NCBI GenBank assembly: GCA_001303705.1
Contig: LJUI01000075.1
Location: forward strand, 1 to 16,904
Reading direction: 5' to 3'
DNA from: a candidate division TA06 bacterium SM23_40
GTDB taxonomy: Bacteria > LJUI01 > SM1-40
Length of the DNA: 16,904 bases
The notes beneath the pieces are model-generated. The model worked only from the letters and a program-made list of their open reading frames with translations. It did no database searches and was not told where the DNA came from. Positions 6,504-14,993 of this stretch are shown one piece after another. The position numbers were made by a program, and so were the translations under genes. Positions within the stretch are counted from its first letter, which is position 1; each line of letters starts with the position of its first letter.

Positions 6504-9476
6504 CTAGTGGAGGACAACCATCTTGCGAGTCCTCCGTTCGGTGCCGACTTCGAGGCTATAGAGATAAATACCAGAGGCAGCCCTCCGGCCGCCCGCGCTC
6601 AATCCATCCCAATCGACACGATGGATGCCCGCCCTGACCATCCCATCCACGAGCTCGCGCACAAGCTGGCCCTGCATATTGTAGATACGGAGCCTCACCC
6701 GCTGCCCGGCAGGGATAGAGTAGGTTATAGTCGTGGTGTGGCGTACAGGATTAGGTGCGTTCTGGGACAGGAAGTGACGACGGTGGACGGGCATGAGCCG
6801 TTGCTCCGCCACCCCTACGGCCCCGAACCAGCAGAGCGCGCGCCTCAGGAGTTCAACCCCGCCCTGAATCTCGGGCGAAGGTTCTCTCACCAGCTCGGGA
6901 GCGAATGCAAGAAAGAGACTGCGATACTCTCCCTCATGGCGGACGCCCGCCGCCCCCCAATGTTCATACTCGAGCACAGTGCTCCCCCCGGCAACGGGCG
7001 AAATGACATCCATTGATGCAGGCCCATCCCGCACAAGCAGCAGGCCGTCTCCGATCGGATCACCGGAGATGCCTGTGATAAGCGTGTCGCTCGTCGCGCC
7101 GGAGTCGAAGCGGGTGTGAAGGTAATCGAGAAGGAAAGGACGCTCAGCGATCTCCTCGGCGATATTATCTCCGCACAGCAGGAGGTCGCCGCCCTGATCC
7201 AGGAACTGGCCGAGCGCCACCTGATCGGCTTGAGTAAGCGTACTCTCAGGAGCTGCGCCCGTGAACCAGAGGACAAGATCGGCGTTCCCCAGCCATCCTG
7301 TCGGCAGCCCCTGAGATCTAACCTCCCATCCGTCGTACACGAGTCCGAGCGTGTCGCGGAGCAGTTCGTCATAGAACGGCGCAAACCCCTGTTCACCATC
7401 GTCATCGACTGCGAGGAGTGAGGGATGGCCGATGAGGAGATCGAGGGTGTCGATCAGATTGTCGGGAACCACTGGTGTCCCGTCAATCTTCCGGAGATAA
7501 AAGGTTGCCCATCTGGCCGGTCCTCCGCTCACCGTGAACGTGAACGGATCATCCGCGTTGTCACCTGTCTTTCCGCTCTCGATATCTCCGAAGCTGGCAG
7601 ACGAATCGACAAGGATGATCTCCGGATCATCTGTCGACAGGTAGCAGTACAGCTCTGCCGAGGGCTGCCACAATGCCGAGTCGAGGAAGGTGATGACCCA
7701 GTCGACGGTCTCGCCCGGCTCAGCTCGACCGTCCCCATCGCCTCCATCATCGAGAATGGTCCAGCCAATCACCTCGGGATAGGAATAGCGCATCGTCCCC
7801 ACGGCACGGTAGGCATCGATGCGTCCTGCACCTGAACTGCTGTCCCGGCCCGGGGGGTCGATATCGAACGCAGTCGCTTCCAGAATACTGTCGATAGCCA
7901 CGGGCATCAGGCTGGGAACCGCCGAGAGCATGAGTGATACCACCCCTGCATTGACGGGAGCTGCCGCCGACGTGCCGCTGAAATTGTAGTTGTACCCCCA
8001 GTTGCTCGTGAGCAGGGCGGCAGGCAGGCCGACACCCGGGGCCGCCACGTCCGGTTTGGCCAGGCCGGGAGGGAACGGGTAGTCATCGAACGGCGGCGCG
8101 AGATCCCAATCGGTAGGACCCCGGCTGCTGAAGTAGGCAACCGTATCCTCCGGCACGCTCGCCCCCACCGCGAGCACGCCGCTGTGGCGGGAAACAATGT
8201 ATATGCCGCTCCCGTCGCTGGGGTACCACGGTGCCGGCACGTCAGCGGGAGGATCGACCTCGTCCGGCGGAGGAAACGGGCAGTACTGGCCGCCGTACCC
8301 TCCCTCGTTCCCCGCCGCCTGTGAGAGCACCGTCCCGCTCGCGAGCAGGGTGTTCCCCGCCAGACGGAGGGAATACGAAGGAGTGGGATGACAGGGGATG
8401 ACGAGGCTCGAGCTCAACAGATCGGCTCCGTTCTCCACGCCGTACTCCATCGCTGCAATGAACTCGCTCGTCAACTGCACCTTCAGGGCCATGACTCTGG
8501 CCTCGGGCGCGAGCCCCGTGGCCACTCCAGCCCACCCGTCACCCGCAACGATCGACGCCGTCGCCGTCCCATGCCCGTGATCATCCATGGGATCGGGACC
8601 ACTCTCTTCGAAGTTCCACCCAACCACGTCATCGAGGAATCCGTTCCCATCGTCGTCCACGTCGTTGAGATCCCCTCCCAGGCTGTCCGGGTAGCTCTCA
8701 AAGTACCCGTTGTTGTTGATATCCTCGGGACCGTTGATCCACATCCGATGGGCGAGATCGAAATGTTTGTAATTGATGCCAGTGTCGATCATCCCCACGA
8801 CTCTGCCCTGCCCGCGGAACCCGAGCCTCCATACCCGATCGGCGCGCACGTGGTGGATCGCCCAGGATGTATCGACGGACGACACCTCCCCGAGTTCCGG
8901 CCTGCACGCATCAGGCTCATCCAGGGCAGGGGCAAGAGCTCTGTCCTGTTCGACGAGCAAGACCCCGGGAAGGGATTCGAGCGACTCCCTGGCCCGTCCC
9001 GAGAGCTCAGCGGCCACGGCGTTGACCATCCACAGGGGCCTCGTCCCGCTCGCCTGCCCCTGGTCCTCAAGGCGCGCCAACTCATCCTTCACCGGTCCCT
9101 GGGTGCGAGCGGCGAGCTCCCTCAGTTCGACGGCGACAGTGTGGCGCCGTGCCTGATGGTCGAGCCCGCGAACCCTGGCGTGGAGCACCTCGTAATCGGG
9201 CTGCTGAGCCAGAACGATAATGAACGGCGTGAGCCTGTCTGAAGACTCCACAGCTCGCCTCACTTCGGGGGGAGAATCAGCCCCCTGAGTCGCCCCCGCA
9301 GGGAGCGTCAGAATGGAGAACGCCGCAGACAACAGGGATACGATGAGCAGCGACGCGCAGCAGCAGGACCGGACTCCTGACCGGGATCCCAGCCTCGTCC
9401 GCGTCCGGATCCTCGAGAGCATCCAGGCGCTCGCACGCGCCAATACCTCATTGTCTGCCCCGACCTTCATCCGCAT
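6504..9476 (-). CDS. Secreted S8 (subtilisin-like) serine protease with C-terminal sorting domain (paralogue 1)
   Basis: A 990-residue secreted protease. After a long basic leader comes a signal-type hydrophobic segment (about 37-60, CCCASLLIVSLLSAAFSI), then an inhibitor-like prodomain (about 80-180). In the catalytic domain D231 lies in GMIDTGINYKHFDL, H302 in DDHGHGTATAS, the oxyanion N390 in AAGNEGG and S503 in NFSGTSAAAP. A Ca-loop-like insert (EDINNNGYF...DVDDDGNGFLDD) follows the Asp motif. Next come a beta-sandwich region, a GATase/ThuA-like domain (LLLCGDNIAEEIAERPFL) and a last ~85-residue FlgD-like/type IX sorting module (SQNAPNPV...GIYLYSLEVG...KMVVLH). The start at 9476 has an excellent GGAGGA site eight bases upstream; the ORF opens at 9530 but without such support. 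The nearby terminator-like hairpins suggest it is transcribed separately from its paralogue. Confidence 0.93.
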   Translation of the reverse strand: MRMKVGADNEVLARASAWMLSRIRTRTRLGSRSGVRSCCCASLLIVSLLSAAFSILTLPAGATQGADSPPEVRRAVESSDRLTPFIIVLAQQPDYEVLHARVRGLDHQARRHTVAVELRELAARTQGPVKDELARLEDQGQASGTRPLWMVNAVAAELSGRARESLESLPGVLLVEQDRALAPALDEPDACRPELGEVSSVDTSWAIHHVRADRVWRLGFRGQGRVVGMIDTGINYKHFDLAHRMWINGPEDINNNGYFESYPDSLGGDLNDVDDDGNGFLDDVVGWNFEESGPDPMDDHGHGTATASIVAGDGWAGVATGLAPEARVMALKVQLTSEFIAAMEYGVENGADLLSSSLVIPCHPTPSYSLRLAGNTLLASGTVLSQAAGNEGGYGGQYCPFPPPDEVDPPADVPAPWYPSDGSGIYIVSRHSGVLAVGASVPEDTVAYFSSRGPTDWDLAPPFDDYPFPPGLAKPDVAAPGVGLPAALLTSNWGYNYNFSGTSAAAPVNAGVVSLMLSAVPSLMPVAIDSILEATAFDIDPPGRDSSSGAGRIDAYRAVGTMRYSYPEVIGWTILDDGGDGDGRAEPGETVDWVITFLDSALWQPSAELYCYLSTDDPEIILVDSSASFGDIESGKTGDNADDPFTFTVSGGPARWATFYLRKIDGTPVVPDNLIDTLDLLIGHPSLLAVDDDGEQGFAPFYDELLRDTLGLVYDGWEVRSQGLPTGWLGNADLVLWFTGAAPESTLTQADQVALGQFLDQGGDLLLCGDNIAEEIAERPFLLDYLHTRFDSGATSDTLITGISGDPIGDGLLLVRDGPASMDVISPVAGGSTVLEYEHWGAAGVRHEGEYRSLFLAFAPELVREPSPEIQGGVELLRRALCWFGAVGVAEQRLMPVHRRHFLSQNAPNPVRHTTTITYSIPAGQRVRLRIYNMQGQLVRELVDGMVRAGIHRVDWDGLSAGGRRAASGIYLYSLEVGTERRTRKMVVLH

Positions 9477-9576
9477 TGATATCTTCCTCCGCAGCCGGAT
9501 AGAAGCATGCAGCCAGAGCCCCGTGCACACTCCACGTCGATGGTGCCGCCGATCCAGGGCGACCCCCGATCAAACG

Positions 9577-9608
9577 AAGGGGAGGCCCCTCGTGCGGGGC
9601 CTCCCCTT
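9577..9608 (-). terminator. Strong GC-rich hairpin downstream of the second subtilase
   Basis: A perfect 13-bp inverted repeat, AAGGGGAGGCCCC / GGGGCCTCCCCTT, with a 6-nt loop. It lies 41 bp downstream of the stop codon of the minus-strand subtilase at 9650. On the minus strand it is followed by CGTTTG, only a weak U tract, so it may end transcripts with help from other factors or protect the 3' end of the mRNA. It separates the two tandem protease genes. Confidence 0.7.
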
Positions 9609-9630
9609 CTCTCGATACCGTGGTAACGAC

Positions 9631-9648
9631 CTCCCCCTATCAGGGGAG
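9631..9648 (-). repeat. Small second hairpin abutting the subtilase stop codon
   Basis: CTCCCC / GGGGAG arms of 6 bp with a 6-nt loop, beginning one base after the stop codon of the second subtilase. Its arms share sequence with the larger hairpin at 9577-9608, so the two could form alternative pairings. Without a T run it is not a classical terminator by itself. Confidence 0.4.
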
Positions 9649-9649
9649 A

Positions 9650-12031
9650 TCAATTCACGACGATCATCTTCCTCGTTGCCTGAGTCCGGCCCGCCTGGAG
9701 ACGGTAGAAGTATACTCCGGACGCAACCCGCTGTCCAGCACCATCTCGCCGGTCCCAGGTGACGACATGTCGGCCCGGCAGCACCGGCCCGTCGACGAGC
9801 GTGCGCACGTGCTGGCCGAGGATGTTATAGACCGTCAGGTTAGCGGCCACAGTGCGCGACTCCTCCCCGGCGCCTGCCGGAACGGCATAAGTGATGAGCG
9901 TCCTCTCGCGAACCGGGTTTGGCCGATTTTGAGCGAGCCTGAGGACTGACGGGATATCCAGCATCGGCTCCGGGCCGGATCCGACATGAGGAGGCATGCC
10001 GAACCAGTACAGTATCCGCTCCATCACTTCCCACTTGTCGTTTGTCGGCGATGGCGGCGCATCATTGATCGCCTCCCACCCGAATCCGAAGAAGACGACC
10101 TGATACGTGCCGGAATCGTAATGAAGGCCGGCAACCCCGCCCAATTCGTAGTAGAAGCAGCTATCTGCACCGGCCAGGACGCCGAGCTCGTCCTTGCCCG
10201 GCTGCGCATCGACGACGATGAGGAGGCTGTCCCCGATCGGGTCACCCTCTACGCCGAACAGACCGTAGTCCGGATTGGTCGGCGCGACGAGACTGGCATG
10301 GAGATAGTCGCTCAGGAACGTCTCTCCCGAGAGCTCCTCCGCGATGTCAGTACCGCTCAGGAAGAGCTTCCCTCCTCCATCGAGGAACGAGCTGAGGAGC
10401 GCCATGTCGCTTGCCGTGAGCGTCGTCTCGCTGTCGTCGCTCGTGAACCAGATCACGAGCTCAGCGGTCGGAACGTAGGAGTCGGGGCTCCCCTGCTCGG
10501 CGACGTCCCAGATGTCGTACAGCATATCGAAGGTATCCCCGAGCACATCCTCATACGCGACCTCGGCATCGTCCCCGCCATCGTCATCGACGAGGAGGAT
10601 TGCCGGGTGGTCGATGAGAACAGAGAGCGTATCCTCGCGGTTGTTCGGGGGAGGCGGGTTATCCGCATCCTTCCATAGTACGAATGTCACCCATCGCGGC
10701 TCACCGCCGTCTACCCTGAACTGGAATGGATTGGAGGTATTGCTCCCGAACCACCCTGCGAAGATATCGGGGAACGTCGCCACCGAGTCGACGATCGTGA
10801 TGTCCGGATCATCAGTGCGCAGCCTTCCCTCGATGTTCGCGGCGTCGAGCCACGGCTGGTAGTTGCGGAGCTGGACGATGAAGTCGACCGTCTCGCCCAC
10901 CTCTGCCCGGTCGTTGGGGTTGGCAGCGCCGCTGTCATCGACCCAGTAGACCTCGGTGTCGAGGAACGAGTACAGGTGGCTGCCAAGCGCCTGGTACGCG
11001 TTGATCCGCCCGGTGCCGAGCATGCCCTCATACCCCGGATTGAGCGAGTCGATATCCTCCGCTGTATCCTTTATCCTCGCTATCACTTCATCGACCGCCA
11101 GCCCGGGAGACTGCGACCTGATAAGCCCGGCCAGCCCGGTTACGAAGGGCGCAGACATCGACGTCCCCTGGAGGTCCGCATAACCGTCGTTGAAGAACGT
11201 GCTCATGATGCCTACGCCGGGGGCGCTCACATCGACCCACGCCCCGTAGTTGGAGAACCCCGCCTTCACATCCTGCTGGTTTGTGGCGGCAACAGACAGG
11301 ACGGTATCGGCCATGATGTCGACTACGTCGGGAGCATTCAGATTGTCGTTGCCGGCGGAATGGACCATCACCACGCCCGCCGCGTATGCATCCCGCATCG
11401 CCTGCATGATCACCCCGCCACTCGTGTCATAGCTCATGTTGATGGCGGTCACGCTCTTCTGGATACCATAGGCGATACCGCTTACCGCAAATGACATGTT
11501 TATCAGGCCGGTCTGACAGTCAGGAGCCTGCCATCCCACCCGGAGCGGCATGATCCGGCAGTCACGTGCCATGCCGGCAACACCGACTCCGTTGTTCGTC
11601 ACGGCCGCGGCGATGCCGGAGACGTGCGTTCCGTGACCGTCGAAGTCCATGGGATCGTTGTCTGCCGTATAGTCCTCGCCGGGACAGACTTGGCTCGGGC
11701 TGAGCGTCACAAAATCCCACCCGATGACGTCGTCGATATACCCGTTCCCGTCGTCATCGAAGTTATTGATGTCGCCTCCCTGGGCCTCGGGAATGGTGTC
11801 GAACTGCCCGTTGCCATTGATGTCCTCGAGCCAATTGATCCAGATATCGGCGGCAAGATCGGGGGGATCCCAATCGACGCCCGTGTCGGTGATCCCCACG
11901 ACGACCGTCGTATCCCACGTCGAAAGGTCCCACGCCTCGGGCCCATCGACATCGTGGTCGTTTTGTTGCCGAAGACCCCACTGTTGATAGAACCGCGGGT
12001 CGTTCGGGACCTCGTGGAGGCGGCAGACATC
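9650..12031 (-). CDS. Secreted S8 serine protease (paralogue 2), catalytic and C-terminal part; frameshifted
   Basis: This frame holds the mature part of a second subtilase. Numbering below is for the repaired protein (922 residues from 12417). It has D178 in GITDTGVDWD, H262 in DGHGTHVSG, oxyanion N357 in VMVHSAGNDN and S420 in LQGTSMSAPFVTG, all intact. A Ca-loop-like segment (EDINGNGQFD...FDDDGNGYIDD), a GATase-like domain (LFLSGTDIAEELSG) and a C-terminal FlgD-like sorting module (QNRPNPV...GVYFYRLQAG...KMIVVN) match paralogue 1 in order. Coding continues upstream of the first usable GTG (11899) through PNDPRFYQQWGL, a typical subtilase entry sequence, to about 12031. There the frame must change by one base to join the signal peptide and prodomain at 12032-12417. 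One base appears missing from a G run. This could be a sequencing error or a real lesion; as read, no secreted protease would be made. Confidence 0.85.
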   Translation of the reverse strand, partial: DVCRLHEVPNDPRFYQQWGLRQQNDHDVDGPEAWDLSTWDTTVVVGITDTGVDWDPPDLAADIWINWLEDINGNGQFDTIPEAQGGDINNFDDDGNGYIDDVIGWDFVTLSPSQVCPGEDYTADNDPMDFDGHGTHVSGIAAAVTNNGVGVAGMARDCRIMPLRVGWQAPDCQTGLINMSFAVSGIAYGIQKSVTAINMSYDTSGGVIMQAMRDAYAAGVVMVHSAGNDNLNAPDVVDIMADTVLSVAATNQQDVKAGFSNYGAWVDVSAPGVGIMSTFFNDGYADLQGTSMSAPFVTGLAGLIRSQSPGLAVDEVIARIKDTAEDIDSLNPGYEGMLGTGRINAYQALGSHLYSFLDTEVYWVDDSGAANPNDRAEVGETVDFIVQLRNYQPWLDAANIEGRLRTDDPDITIVDSVATFPDIFAGWFGSNTSNPFQFRVDGGEPRWVTFVLWKDADNPPPPNNREDTLSVLIDHPAILLVDDDGGDDAEVAYEDVLGDTFDMLYDIWDVAEQGSPDSYVPTAELVIWFTSDDSETTLTASDMALLSSFLDGGGKLFLSGTDIAEELSGETFLSDYLHASLVAPTNPDYGLFGVEGDPIGDSLLIVVDAQPGKDELGVLAGADSCFYYELGGVAGLHYDSGTYQVVFFGFGWEAINDAPPSPTNDKWEVMERILYWFGMPPHVGSGPEPMLDIPSVLRLAQNRPNPVRERTLITYAVPAGAGEESRTVAANLTVYNILGQHVRTLVDGPVLPGRHVVTWDRRDGAGQRVASGVYFYRLQAGRTQATRKMIVVN

Positions 12032-12417
12032 CCTGCATAGGTGCGGGCCGCGGCGACCAAATCGGCCTCTCCCGCGAGCTTCAGTAGATAGGCGCCGGCA
12101 AGTTTCTCCAGGGTTACTCTCCCTTGAAGCAGACCGATATTGACGAGGGGCCTCATGTCCAGGACGCCGAACTGCTCGTTGAGTGCGGCGAGCGCGCCCC
12201 GGGCATTATCCCTCCCCTCGGCCGTGATCGCCGAATACCCTTCAGATGCTGCCATTCCGACGATGAGATGCCCTTCCATATACCCGACCGCCGGGGAAGG
12301 CACCTGATCAGTGTAGACGACCTCTTGGGCCTGGGCCGAAACCACCGAGACCACCAGCAACGCCATTGCGGCCCAGCAGGCGAGACCGACATCTCCACGC
12401 ACATTCATCCTAGGCAT
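12032..12417 (-). pseudogene. N-terminal part (signal peptide and prodomain) of the frameshifted subtilase
   Basis: About 128 codons with a signal peptide (MPRMNVRGDVGLACWAAMAL onward, likely cleaved after AQA near residue 31) and a prodomain-like region (MEGHLIVGMA ... ALNEQFGVLDMRPL ... YLLKLAGEADLVAAARTYAG). This is the usual prodomain pattern of subtilases, and the catalytic domain follows at once in another frame. The ATG at 12417 has GAGGAGG six bases upstream; the ATG at 12423 directly abuts that site and is less likely. Left in its own frame, translation runs on into nonsense and stops at 11707. Adding one G after TATGCAGGG restores one continuous protein. Confidence 0.75.
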
Positions 12418-12423
12418 TGTCAT

Positions 12424-13072
12424 CCTCCTCAGTTCGCTCAGTTCACAGCCCCCCCTACCCGGCGCCGCTGACCCTCGCTTGGGCAGATCAACGCGAAGAC
12501 CTCAACCACGCCCACGCTGGGCCTCATCCCGCGCGGGGAGACCGCTGCCAGCATTATGGTTCACTCTGTGCCCTCCTCACAGACGATCTGACTCTTCCCC
12601 GTTCATGGGTCGAGTGAAGACGGCACATCACCATATGGTAACAACCGTAGAAAAGAAAATGACTCCCGCGATCCTCTCGCCGCTCCCCGAGATCTATCAA
12701 AGTCGAGGATATTGACCGGGTCTGGGAGAGGAGTAAGGCCTTGTTCAGGCCGGGAGGCACATCCAGGGACCTTTGAGAGGGGACCGATCGATGTGATCGG
12801 TGACCGACGGAAGACCGGAAAGGCAGTATGCTCCTTCCGAATGCACACCAAGTATAAGGGATGCGACCGCCTGAGGCAAGGAAATTCTCGGGCGTCCCCG
12901 GTAGGATCGAGCCGCTCCATATCCCCTGAAGATAGAGGAGGTTGCCGTCTATTTCCAGCTCTTGAGGGGCGGTACCCGGCCACGCTGCCCGCCCATGACC
13001 GTTGCTACGTCCGCAACCTGCCATCGCGCGCCTATGCGCACGACGAGACCCCTCTCGCGGGAGCAAGACACC
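12424..13072. other. Gene-poor region between the subtilase and abiE
   Basis: About 650 bp with no gene I can support. Open frames exist on both strands (for example 12712-13080 on plus and 12554-13066 on minus), but they encode Arg/Pro/Ser-rich sequence without recognisable motifs, and they overlap one another. Small dyads are present: GGCCT-tgttc-AGGCC at 12737-12751, ACCGATC-gatgt-GATCGGT at 12783-12801 and the 10-bp palindrome ACCATATGGT at 12630-12639. The minus-strand subtilase promoter should lie here, but I found no convincing -35/-10 pair. Confidence 0.5.
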
Positions 13073-13137
13073 GAACTTGACGTCAGGGCGAGAAGAGGCT
13101 AATATCGTTAGCCTCTTCTCGCTAAAATGTCAAGTTC
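13073..13137. repeat. Composite palindrome upstream of abiEi (probable operator)
   Basis: A 65-bp inverted repeat. Outer arms GAACTTGAC (13073-13081) and GTCAAGTTC (13129-13137) are perfect over 9 bp. Inner arms GCGAGAAGAGGCTAA (13088-13102) and TTAGCCTCTTCTCGC (13108-13122) are perfect over 15 bp around a 5-base centre TATCG. Neither strand has a T run after it, so an intrinsic terminator is unlikely. AbiEi antitoxins of known systems bind inverted repeats upstream of their operon and repress it; this element is a good candidate for that site, about 85 bp before the abiEi start. The binding role is inferred. Confidence 0.65.
13077..13105 (+). promoter_or_regulatory. Candidate distal promoter inside the palindrome
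   Basis: TTGACG (13077-13082) and TAATAT (13100-13105) are separated by 17 bp, matching the sigma-70 consensus in five and four of six positions. The -35 box lies in the left outer arm and the -10 box spans the inner arm and the centre, so a protein bound to the palindrome would block it. Transcription would start near 13112 and run into abiEi. Because the element is palindromic, a weaker mirror promoter (TTGACA-17-TAACGA) also appears on the minus strand. Confidence 0.4.
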
Positions 13138-13150
13138 CGCCACTATTCGG

Positions 13151-13179
13151 TTGACAACACGGCGACATAAGGCTAAAGT
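13151..13179 (+). promoter_or_regulatory. Main candidate promoter of abiEi-abiEii
   Basis: A perfect -35 box TTGACA (13151-13156) and a -10 box TAAAGT (13174-13179, four of six) are 17 bp apart, giving a start near 13186 and a leader of about 36 bases. An 8-bp inverted pair, GTTGACAA (13150-13157) and TTGTCAAC (13201-13208), flanks the promoter and could be a second operator. The element GGCTAA is shared with the palindrome upstream (AGGCTAATATCG versus AGGCTAAAGTTATC). Confidence 0.6.
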
Positions 13180-13221
13180 TATCTACCCTAACTCACCCCT
13201 TTGTCAACTGGAGCCGAACCA

Positions 13222-14028
13222 ATGAAGTTGAACAAGTTCTTCTCAACACATCCTGTATTCACGGTCTCAGAACTCGATAAGTTCCTCGCGCAACAAGGGT
13301 CCCGTAATCATTGGACCCGCAAGGCTCTCCTCGCCCACCACCGGAAGCAAGGACGCATCCTGCCGGTGCGTCGAGGCCTGTACGCAGTCGTACCCCCGGG
13401 GGCATCTCCTGATACGTGCCCGGTCGATCCGTATCTGCTTGCAGCCAGGATGACTGACGATGCAGTGCTCGGTTACCACACGGCTCTAGAGTTCCATGGC
13501 AATGCCTACTCTGTCTACGAGCAGTTCTTCTATTTGGCTGAACGAAAATCGGCTCCGGCAACGTTCCGCTCATATCGGTTCCGCTGCGTCCTGTTCCCCA
13601 GGAAACTTCGGGCTCAGGGGAAGATGAACTTCGGAGTCCAGGTTGGCGAACGAGCCGGGATCCCAGTTCGGGTCACAAGTCTCGAGCGCACATTGGTCGA
13701 CGTCCTTGACCGACCCGATCTCGGGGGCAGCTGGGAAGAGATATGGCGCTCGCTGGAGTCAGTGGAGTTCTTCGATCTGAACCGGGTCGTCGATTACGCC
13801 CTCCTTCTCGGCAATGCGACGACCGTGGCCAAGGTGGGTTTCTTTCTGGATCAGCATCGCGATGCCCTCATGGTCGAGGAGGCCCATCTCCGTCCTCTGC
13901 GCGACCATCGACCGCGAAACCCCCATTACCTGAGCCGCGGTGCTAGAAAGCCCGGGCACTTCATACCCGATTGGAACCTGATCGTGCCAGCCGCAGTACT
14001 CGAGCGGTCTTGGGCGGAGGTCAGATGA
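13222..14028 (+). CDS. abiEi: Type IV toxin-antitoxin antitoxin AbiEi
   Basis: A 268-residue AbiEi-family protein, the antitoxin and transcriptional repressor of an AbiE system. Residues 1-60 form a winged-helix type domain (HPVFTVSELDKFLAQQ, then RQGRILPVRRGLYAVVPPG-like wing; here written KQGRILPVRRGLYAV). The rest is the toxin-countering domain, with the family pattern VTSLERTLVDVLDRPDLGGS near residues 151-170. The ATG at 13222 has GGAG eight bases upstream; an in-frame TTG at 13201 lies in the leader and inside an inverted repeat, so it is less likely. The stop overlaps the toxin start by 4 nt (ATGA), a sign of translational coupling. It is the only plus-strand operon in the window, which fits a module acquired separately. 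Confidence 0.9.
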   Translation: MKLNKFFSTHPVFTVSELDKFLAQQGSRNHWTRKALLAHHRKQGRILPVRRGLYAVVPPGASPDTCPVDPYLLAARMTDDAVLGYHTALEFHGNAYSVYEQFFYLAERKSAPATFRSYRFRCVLFPRKLRAQGKMNFGVQVGERAGIPVRVTSLERTLVDVLDRPDLGGSWEEIWRSLESVEFFDLNRVVDYALLLGNATTVAKVGFFLDQHRDALMVEEAHLRPLRDHRPRNPHYLSRGARKPGHFIPDWNLIVPAAVLERSWAEVR

Positions 14029-14993
14029 GAATCTCGAAGGAGAGACTAGTCTCCGAGGCCGAGGCGACTGGATTCCGGGCCGAAGTCATGGAAAAGGCCA
14101 TCCATCTACTCAACCTGCTCGAGAGCCTTGGCAGGCACCCATTTCTCCAGAGTCGTCTGGCGCTCAAGGGCGGCACGGCTCTGAATCTGTTCGTATTCGA
14201 CGTTCCACGTCTATCTGTCGACCTGGACCTCAACTACATCGGTGCTGCTGACAGGAACCTGATGCTTGAGGAACGACCAAAGATCGAGAAAGCGATCCGA
14301 GCGGTCTGCGCGCGTGAAGACCTTGCTGTCCGTCGCGTCCCAGAAGATCACGCTGGAGGAAAGTGGGTACTCCGCTATCGAAGCGCCCTCGGGCTCGGAG
14401 GGAACCTCGAGATCGACTTGAATTTCATGTTTCGCATCCCCCTATGGCCACCTGTCGTTAGAGACTCCCGCTCGGTCGGTTCGTACAGAGCTTCGGGGAT
14501 ACTAACGCTCGATACCCACGAGCTCGCAGCCAGCAAGCTCGTGGCTCTGCTGACCCGCCGGCAGGCGCGAGATCTCTTTGACGTGCACCAGCTCCTGACG
14601 CGCCTCGAACTGGATCGCCAGAATCTAAGACCGGCGTTCGTCGCTCTCGGTGCCACGACCCGGACGGACTGGCGAACGATCTCCACAGATGATGTAGATT
14701 TCACGGTAGATGAGCTCAGAAACCACCTGATACCGATGCTGCGCAGTCCCTCCCCACTGAGCGTCAAGCAGACGGCGGAATGGGGAGGCCGTCTGGTTGA
14801 CGAATGTCGTCGGACGTTCGAGATCGTGCTCCCACTCTCAGGCCGCGAATTGCAGTTCCTGGATCGACTGCTCGATGCTGGCGAGATCGATCCTTCGCTC
14901 CTCACCTCAGACGAAGCCCTGAGCGACAGAATCAGGCGTCACCCTCTCCTACAATGGAAAGCCCTCAACATCAGACAATACAAGGGCAAATGA
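14025..14993 (+). CDS. abiEii: Type IV toxin-antitoxin toxin AbiEii (nucleotidyltransferase)
   Basis: A 322-residue DUF1814/AbiEii-family nucleotidyltransferase. The N-terminal motif LKGGTALNLF followed by RLSVDLDLNYIG (about residues 44-68) gives the GG-x(n)-DxD metal and nucleotide site. EIDLNF (about 131-136) supplies a further acidic strand. ASKLVALLTRRQARDLFD (about 171-188) carries the conserved Lys and the RDLFD helix. AbiEii toxins bind nucleotides and arrest growth, and related MenT toxins modify tRNA acceptor ends; the target here is unknown. All key residues appear intact, so the toxin is probably active. The start at 14025 has GGAGG upstream and overlaps the antitoxin stop. The gene ends about 210 bp from the native end of the convergent aspS gene. 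Confidence 0.92.
   Translation: MRISKERLVSEAEATGFRAEVMEKAIHLLNLLESLGRHPFLQSRLALKGGTALNLFVFDVPRLSVDLDLNYIGAADRNLMLEERPKIEKAIRAVCAREDLAVRRVPEDHAGGKWVLRYRSALGLGGNLEIDLNFMFRIPLWPPVVRDSRSVGSYRASGILTLDTHELAASKLVALLTRRQARDLFDVHQLLTRLELDRQNLRPAFVALGATTRTDWRTISTDDVDFTVDELRNHLIPMLRSPSPLSVKQTAEWGGRLVDECRRTFEIVLPLSGRELQFLDRLLDAGEIDPSLLTSDEALSDRIRRHPLLQWKALNIRQYKGK

Follow-up and report, generated by a model that had tools for sequence, protein, structure and literature searches.

Two tandem candidate AbiEi operators in the control region of a type IV abiE operon from a candidate division TA06 bacterium

Introduction

AbiEi proteins bind paired 23-bp inverted repeats in their own promoter and repress it (PMC7319586). 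Two of them serve as points of reference here. The Streptococcus agalactiae AbiEi acts on one pair of 23-bp repeats and binds with positive cooperativity (PMC7319586), the two repeats lying 3 bp apart (PMC7319586, PMC3985639). In the Mycobacterium tuberculosis operon Rv2827c-Rv2826c, two inverted-repeat pairs lie upstream of the AbiEi-type antitoxin gene and overlap its promoter; the 23-bp repeats are separated by 13 bp within a pair and by 4 bp between pairs, and binding shows negative cooperativity (PMC7319586). Autoregulation through paired inverted repeats is also described for S. suis (PMC11062541). A preliminary description of the DNA studied here had stated that known AbiEi proteins repress their operons through upstream inverted repeats. 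No study of an AbiEi subfamily with a 57-bp operator was found in the literature.

We analysed a 16,904-nucleotide stretch of DNA (hereafter the window) from candidate division TA06 bacterium SM23_40. We consider it highly probable that AbiEi regulates its own type IV abiE operon from positions 13077-13207, through two tandem copies of its operator; binding, repression, stoichiometry and the choice of firing promoter are inferred.

Results

The putative operon consists of two genes on the forward strand. The first, abiEi (13222-14028), encodes the predicted 268-residue antitoxin and autorepressor (PADLOC AbiEi E=1e-118), which also matches Pfam AbiEi_4 barely over the cut-off. The second, abiEii (14025-14993), encodes the predicted nucleotidyltransferase-type toxin (PF08843 E=1e-31; PADLOC AbiEii E=2e-104), its ATG overlapping the stop codon of abiEi (ATGA). 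In the predicted AbiEi model (pLDDT 87), residues 1-57 form a winged helix, with residues 30-42 as the recognition helix, and a nucleotidyltransferase-like C-terminal domain follows. A sequence search of the PDB gave no matches; a fold search did. Two structures stood well ahead of all others in it: M. tuberculosis Rv2827c (1zel), with Z 14.3 over 248 residues and a protein identity of about 14-18% in the structural alignments, and S. agalactiae AbiEi (6y8q), with Z 13.7 over 186 residues. With 195 residues in chain 6y8q_A, the S. agalactiae protein is shorter than the 268-residue AbiEi of the window. An AbiEi with an N-terminal winged helix and a nucleotidyltransferase-like C-terminal domain, next to an AbiEii nucleotidyltransferase toxin in the same operon, is the composition expected of a type IV AbiE system.

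The nearest upstream gene lies on the opposite strand and starts at about 12423, so that no upstream forward-strand gene drives a transcript into the region. Roughly 650 bp (12424-13072) separate this divergent subtilase-like gene from the first operator copy; this interval holds no recognisable gene, and searches of it gave no Pfam domain and no plasmid match. The reverse strand carries a tandem pair of large subtilase genes at 6504-12423, with FlgD-like or secretion-sorting C-terminal domains. A frameshift may have split the second of these genes, leaving its 5' part as a separate frame at 11707-12423.

Upstream of abiEi a repeat search located 30-nt arms at 13073-13102 and 13108-13137, 83% complementary across a 5-nt loop. 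Within these arms lie perfect 15-bp inner arms (13088-13102 and 13108-13122) and 9-bp outer arms (13073-13081 and 13129-13137), just where the nested palindrome had been described, over a promoter-like TTGACG-17-TAATAT. The palindrome is far beyond chance: dyad scores over the 621 bp upstream peak at 15, against a maximum of 12 in 100 shuffles. The same search showed that 13077-13102 recurs as a direct repeat at 13151-13176 (77% over 26 nt). This direct repeat belongs to two copies of one larger element, the distal operator O1 (13077-13133) and the proximal operator O2 (13151-13207), both of the form TTGAC-N47-GTCAA and 57 bp long, with centres 74 bp apart and 17 bp between the two dyads. Each comprises inverted 26-bp half-sites 5 bp apart (13077-13102 on the forward and 13108-13133 on the reverse strand in O1; 13151-13176 and 13182-13207, likewise, in O2). 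Read in the same orientation, all four arms begin with TTGAC, followed by a GGCGAGA-like and then an AGGCTAA-like block, and the likeness of O1 to O2 drops off beyond the dyad limits. The 8-bp inverted pair GTTGACAA/TTGTCAAC (13150-13157 and 13201-13208), reported earlier as a separate pair flanking a second promoter, is present and proves to be the outer end of O2. Matrix scores are 41.5 for O1 and 33.7 for O2 (shuffles at most 7.6), and a position matrix trained without the window ranked the two copies at the top of it (30.9 and 29.9; next -4.5). O2 lies at -71 to -15 relative to abiEi, where most homologues place theirs, and is directly followed by a putative ribosome binding site, GGAG within TGGAG (13209-13213).

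A promoter scan of 900 bp returned two sites as the sole forward-strand matches, where shuffling predicts 0.3 for both strands: P1 (TTGACG-17-TAATAT, 13077-13105) inside O1, a possible second promoter, and P2 (TTGACA-17-TAAAGT, 13151-13179) in O2, the likely main promoter. In both operators the left outer arm doubles as the -35 hexamer, and the dyad centre holds the -10 hexamer. The window thus has two inverted-repeat pairs upstream of abiEi, each overlapping a promoter-like site, the arrangement by which AbiEi autoregulatory operators are recognised.

Upstream regions (260 bp 5' of abiEi) were compared among homologues from genome contigs, plasmids and whole genomes, a comparison that the preliminary description had proposed for close AbiEi homologues and which recovered the same dyad. 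The gap-47 dyad is present in nearly all homologues of at least 56% identity. Over the 22 loci of at least 44% identity (window included), exact TTGAC-N47-GTCAA occurs as 17 sites in 12 loci, the gap always being 47; other gaps average 0.03 sites each. In the 234 kb of fetched DNA all 21 exact matches lie upstream of abiEi genes, and every other gap from 40 to 54 has at most one match. In a leave-one-out matrix scan nearly all close homologues had the dyad at scores far exceeding those of shuffles (L006 being marginal), and several distant ones had weaker forms, among them the TTGAA/TTCAA and TTGCA/TGCAA variants of L008, L010 and L011; in several homologues below 50% identity the scan did not find it. 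The proximal site is at -67 to -74 in most loci. No relatives were found in viral contigs, and phages yielded just one, a distant one. Loci L057 and L060 lie on one contig, where two nearby abiEi genes occupy the same strand; their exact site is one site counted twice, situated by its coordinates just 5' of the contig's second abiEi.

Two tandem copies were found in seven genomes, at spacings of 74 bp in the window, 75 in L003, 85 in L051, 99 in L052, 74 in L061, 74 in L062 and 68 in L007, with the proximal copy at about -70 to -13. In L037 and L041 the matrix scan gave a weaker second copy. The 99-bp and 68-bp spacings are not whole helical turns; helical phasing was accordingly rejected as a conserved feature of the copies, and neither phasing nor looping is general. 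The double operator of the M. tuberculosis antitoxin thus has putative counterparts, of a different geometry, in other bacterial lineages.

The inner bases of the dyad were examined for evidence of the protein that reads them. The outer TTGAC is constant and was part of the site selection; pairing is mostly absent at bases 6-10 from each end and mostly present, although the sequence varies, at bases 11-26. Over columns 11-26, distal and proximal copies agree at 0.57 within a genome against 0.40 across genomes, and none of the 5040 permutations does better than the true pairing (1/5040). Operator distance correlates with AbiEi winged-helix distance (Mantel, 16 sequences; r=0.45, p=0.0002), and still does so when the rest of the protein is controlled for (r=0.34, p=0.004), a control that lessens shared ancestry without removing it. 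The reverse control, the rest of the protein given the winged helix, was not significant (p=0.26). The likeness of copies within a genome may partly reflect an old duplication, and the operator-helix correlation partly shared ancestry; the pattern is nevertheless that expected if AbiEi binds the dyad. Trp at residue 31 is found in two proteins, those of the window and L052, both with GGC-TAA-type cores, an association of two cases only.

Discussion

The 57-bp dyad is very probably the site at which AbiEi binds to switch off its own genes. Two AbiEi monomers would bind per dyad, the N-terminal winged helix of each reading one 26-bp half-site. AbiEi on O2 would block RNA polymerase at the main promoter P2, the two competing because the -35 and -10 hexamers are within the dyad. 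O1 is the more symmetric copy here and sits 74 bp further upstream, at roughly the same face of the helix; it would be a second operator that shuts the possible upstream promoter, strengthens repression or widens its range, or does both.

Within this scheme, we find it somewhat more probable than its opposite that O1 is an auxiliary operator and not a promoter, P2 alone making the abiE transcript and O1 contributing, in the way known from Rv2827c, through binding that is cooperative or graded. The distal copies of five of the six two-copy relatives (L003, L051, L061, L062 and L007) are without a good -10 at 17-bp spacing, while the proximal -10 is retained in most of the other two-copy genomes, and the position conserved across loci is the proximal one. 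Against this, the window O1 carries a complete TTGACG-17-TAATAT and the distal copy of L052 retains TAATGT as a -10. The comparison thus points to P2, the proximal one, as the conserved promoter; P1 is plausible as a promoter in the window but without backing from conservation. Because the distal copies of most two-copy relatives have no good -10, their common role is better supported as that of an operator. The earlier proposal of two operators on two promoters controlling abiE is supported by the comparison in the form of two operators on two promoter-like sites; P1 is not conserved as a promoter in most relatives.

Other readings of the palindrome fare less well. That a regulator other than AbiEi binds the dyads and controls abiE modules is improbable, since the site accompanies abiEi across phyla on plasmid and chromosome alike, its bases track the AbiEi winged helix, and paired inverted repeats are an established means of autoregulation, both for two AbiEi proteins (PMC7319586) and in S. 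suis (PMC11062541). Still less credible is that the 65-bp element works as RNA, as an attenuator or antisense target; the preliminary description had suggested that it could fold as a long hairpin in a transcript begun further upstream. Positions 13073-13137 do fold very stably, at -44.2 kcal/mol (z = -12.3), but the strength of the stem is not conserved: the window O2 folds at just -12.6, and in relatives the distal copies show weak symmetry, at 6-11 of the 16 inner positions where the window has 15. Positions 6-10 of the dyads are mostly unpaired while the total length is fixed. The upstream gene runs on the other strand, RNA from P1 would lack the left arm because its start is inside the dyad, and we found no T-run terminator and no Rfam match at the gathering threshold. 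Least likely of all, and practically to be dismissed, is the insertion of a mobile repeat (REP or MITE) in front of abiE. The perfect 15-bp inner arms resemble the end of such an element, but the palindrome overlaps a promoter, and the same geometry, with diverged bases, stands at abiEi loci of several phyla, on plasmids and chromosomes. It occurs in the 2.88-Mb genome at its own locus only, so that the idea of a repeat family, which would have counted against the original claim, was rejected. Exact TTGAC-N47-GTCAA occurs four times in that genome, as O1, O2 and two further sites, C179 and C182; the latter were considered as additional AbiEi targets and discarded, their inner scores being low and chance-like.

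The proposed AbiEi double operator is well supported and has precedent in kind, with a conserved geometry of its own; the result refines known biology and does not amount to a new type of system. The window resembles Rv2827c-Rv2826c in having two pairs and in the fold of the protein, but does not have that operon's dimensions, its 26-bp half-sites lying 5 bp apart within and 17 bp apart between dyads, and it further differs in the placing of the promoter hexamers, with the -35 as outer arm and the -10 in the middle of each dyad. The arrangement had been called denser than the simple case; there are indeed two pairs here, but Rv2827c had already provided a precedent (PMC7319586). S. agalactiae AbiEi resembles the window protein in fold and in having paired repeats in its promoter, 3 bp apart there and 5 here, and differs in its single pair of 23-bp repeats. 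A closer relative is the abiE locus of the Desulfomonile tiedjei plasmid pDESTI.01 (L034), whose AbiEi is 59% identical and whose 57-bp dyad lies at -72 to -16; it differs in having one operator and in adjoining a parA gene on the plasmid.

These comparisons provide a testable operator definition for a widespread AbiEi subfamily, and operators and winged helices vary naturally, which makes them a convenient collection for learning how AbiEi chooses its DNA. A bolder proposal, which we hold tentatively and rate at rather less than an even chance, is that the operator of this subfamily is fixed at 57 bp and embedded in the promoter, while its inner bases (half-site columns about 11-23) would make up a changeable specificity code, which the beginning of the recognition helix (residues about 29-34) would read. 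The tandem copies would give graded or looped repression unlike that of both studied AbiEi proteins.

Two more distant loci bear other arrangements. Upstream of the match at 2498 in L035, a 36% AbiEi homologue on the Methylorubrum extorquens AM1 megaplasmid, three spaced palindromic blocks surround CTGGTACAT...GTACC, an operator-like array quite unlike TTGAC-N47-GTCAA. Upstream of 1483 in L016, a 30% homologue, the sequence reads CTTGCAAAATTATGCA-N47-TGCATAATTTGGCAAG, which is possibly a relative of the operator with different outer bases.
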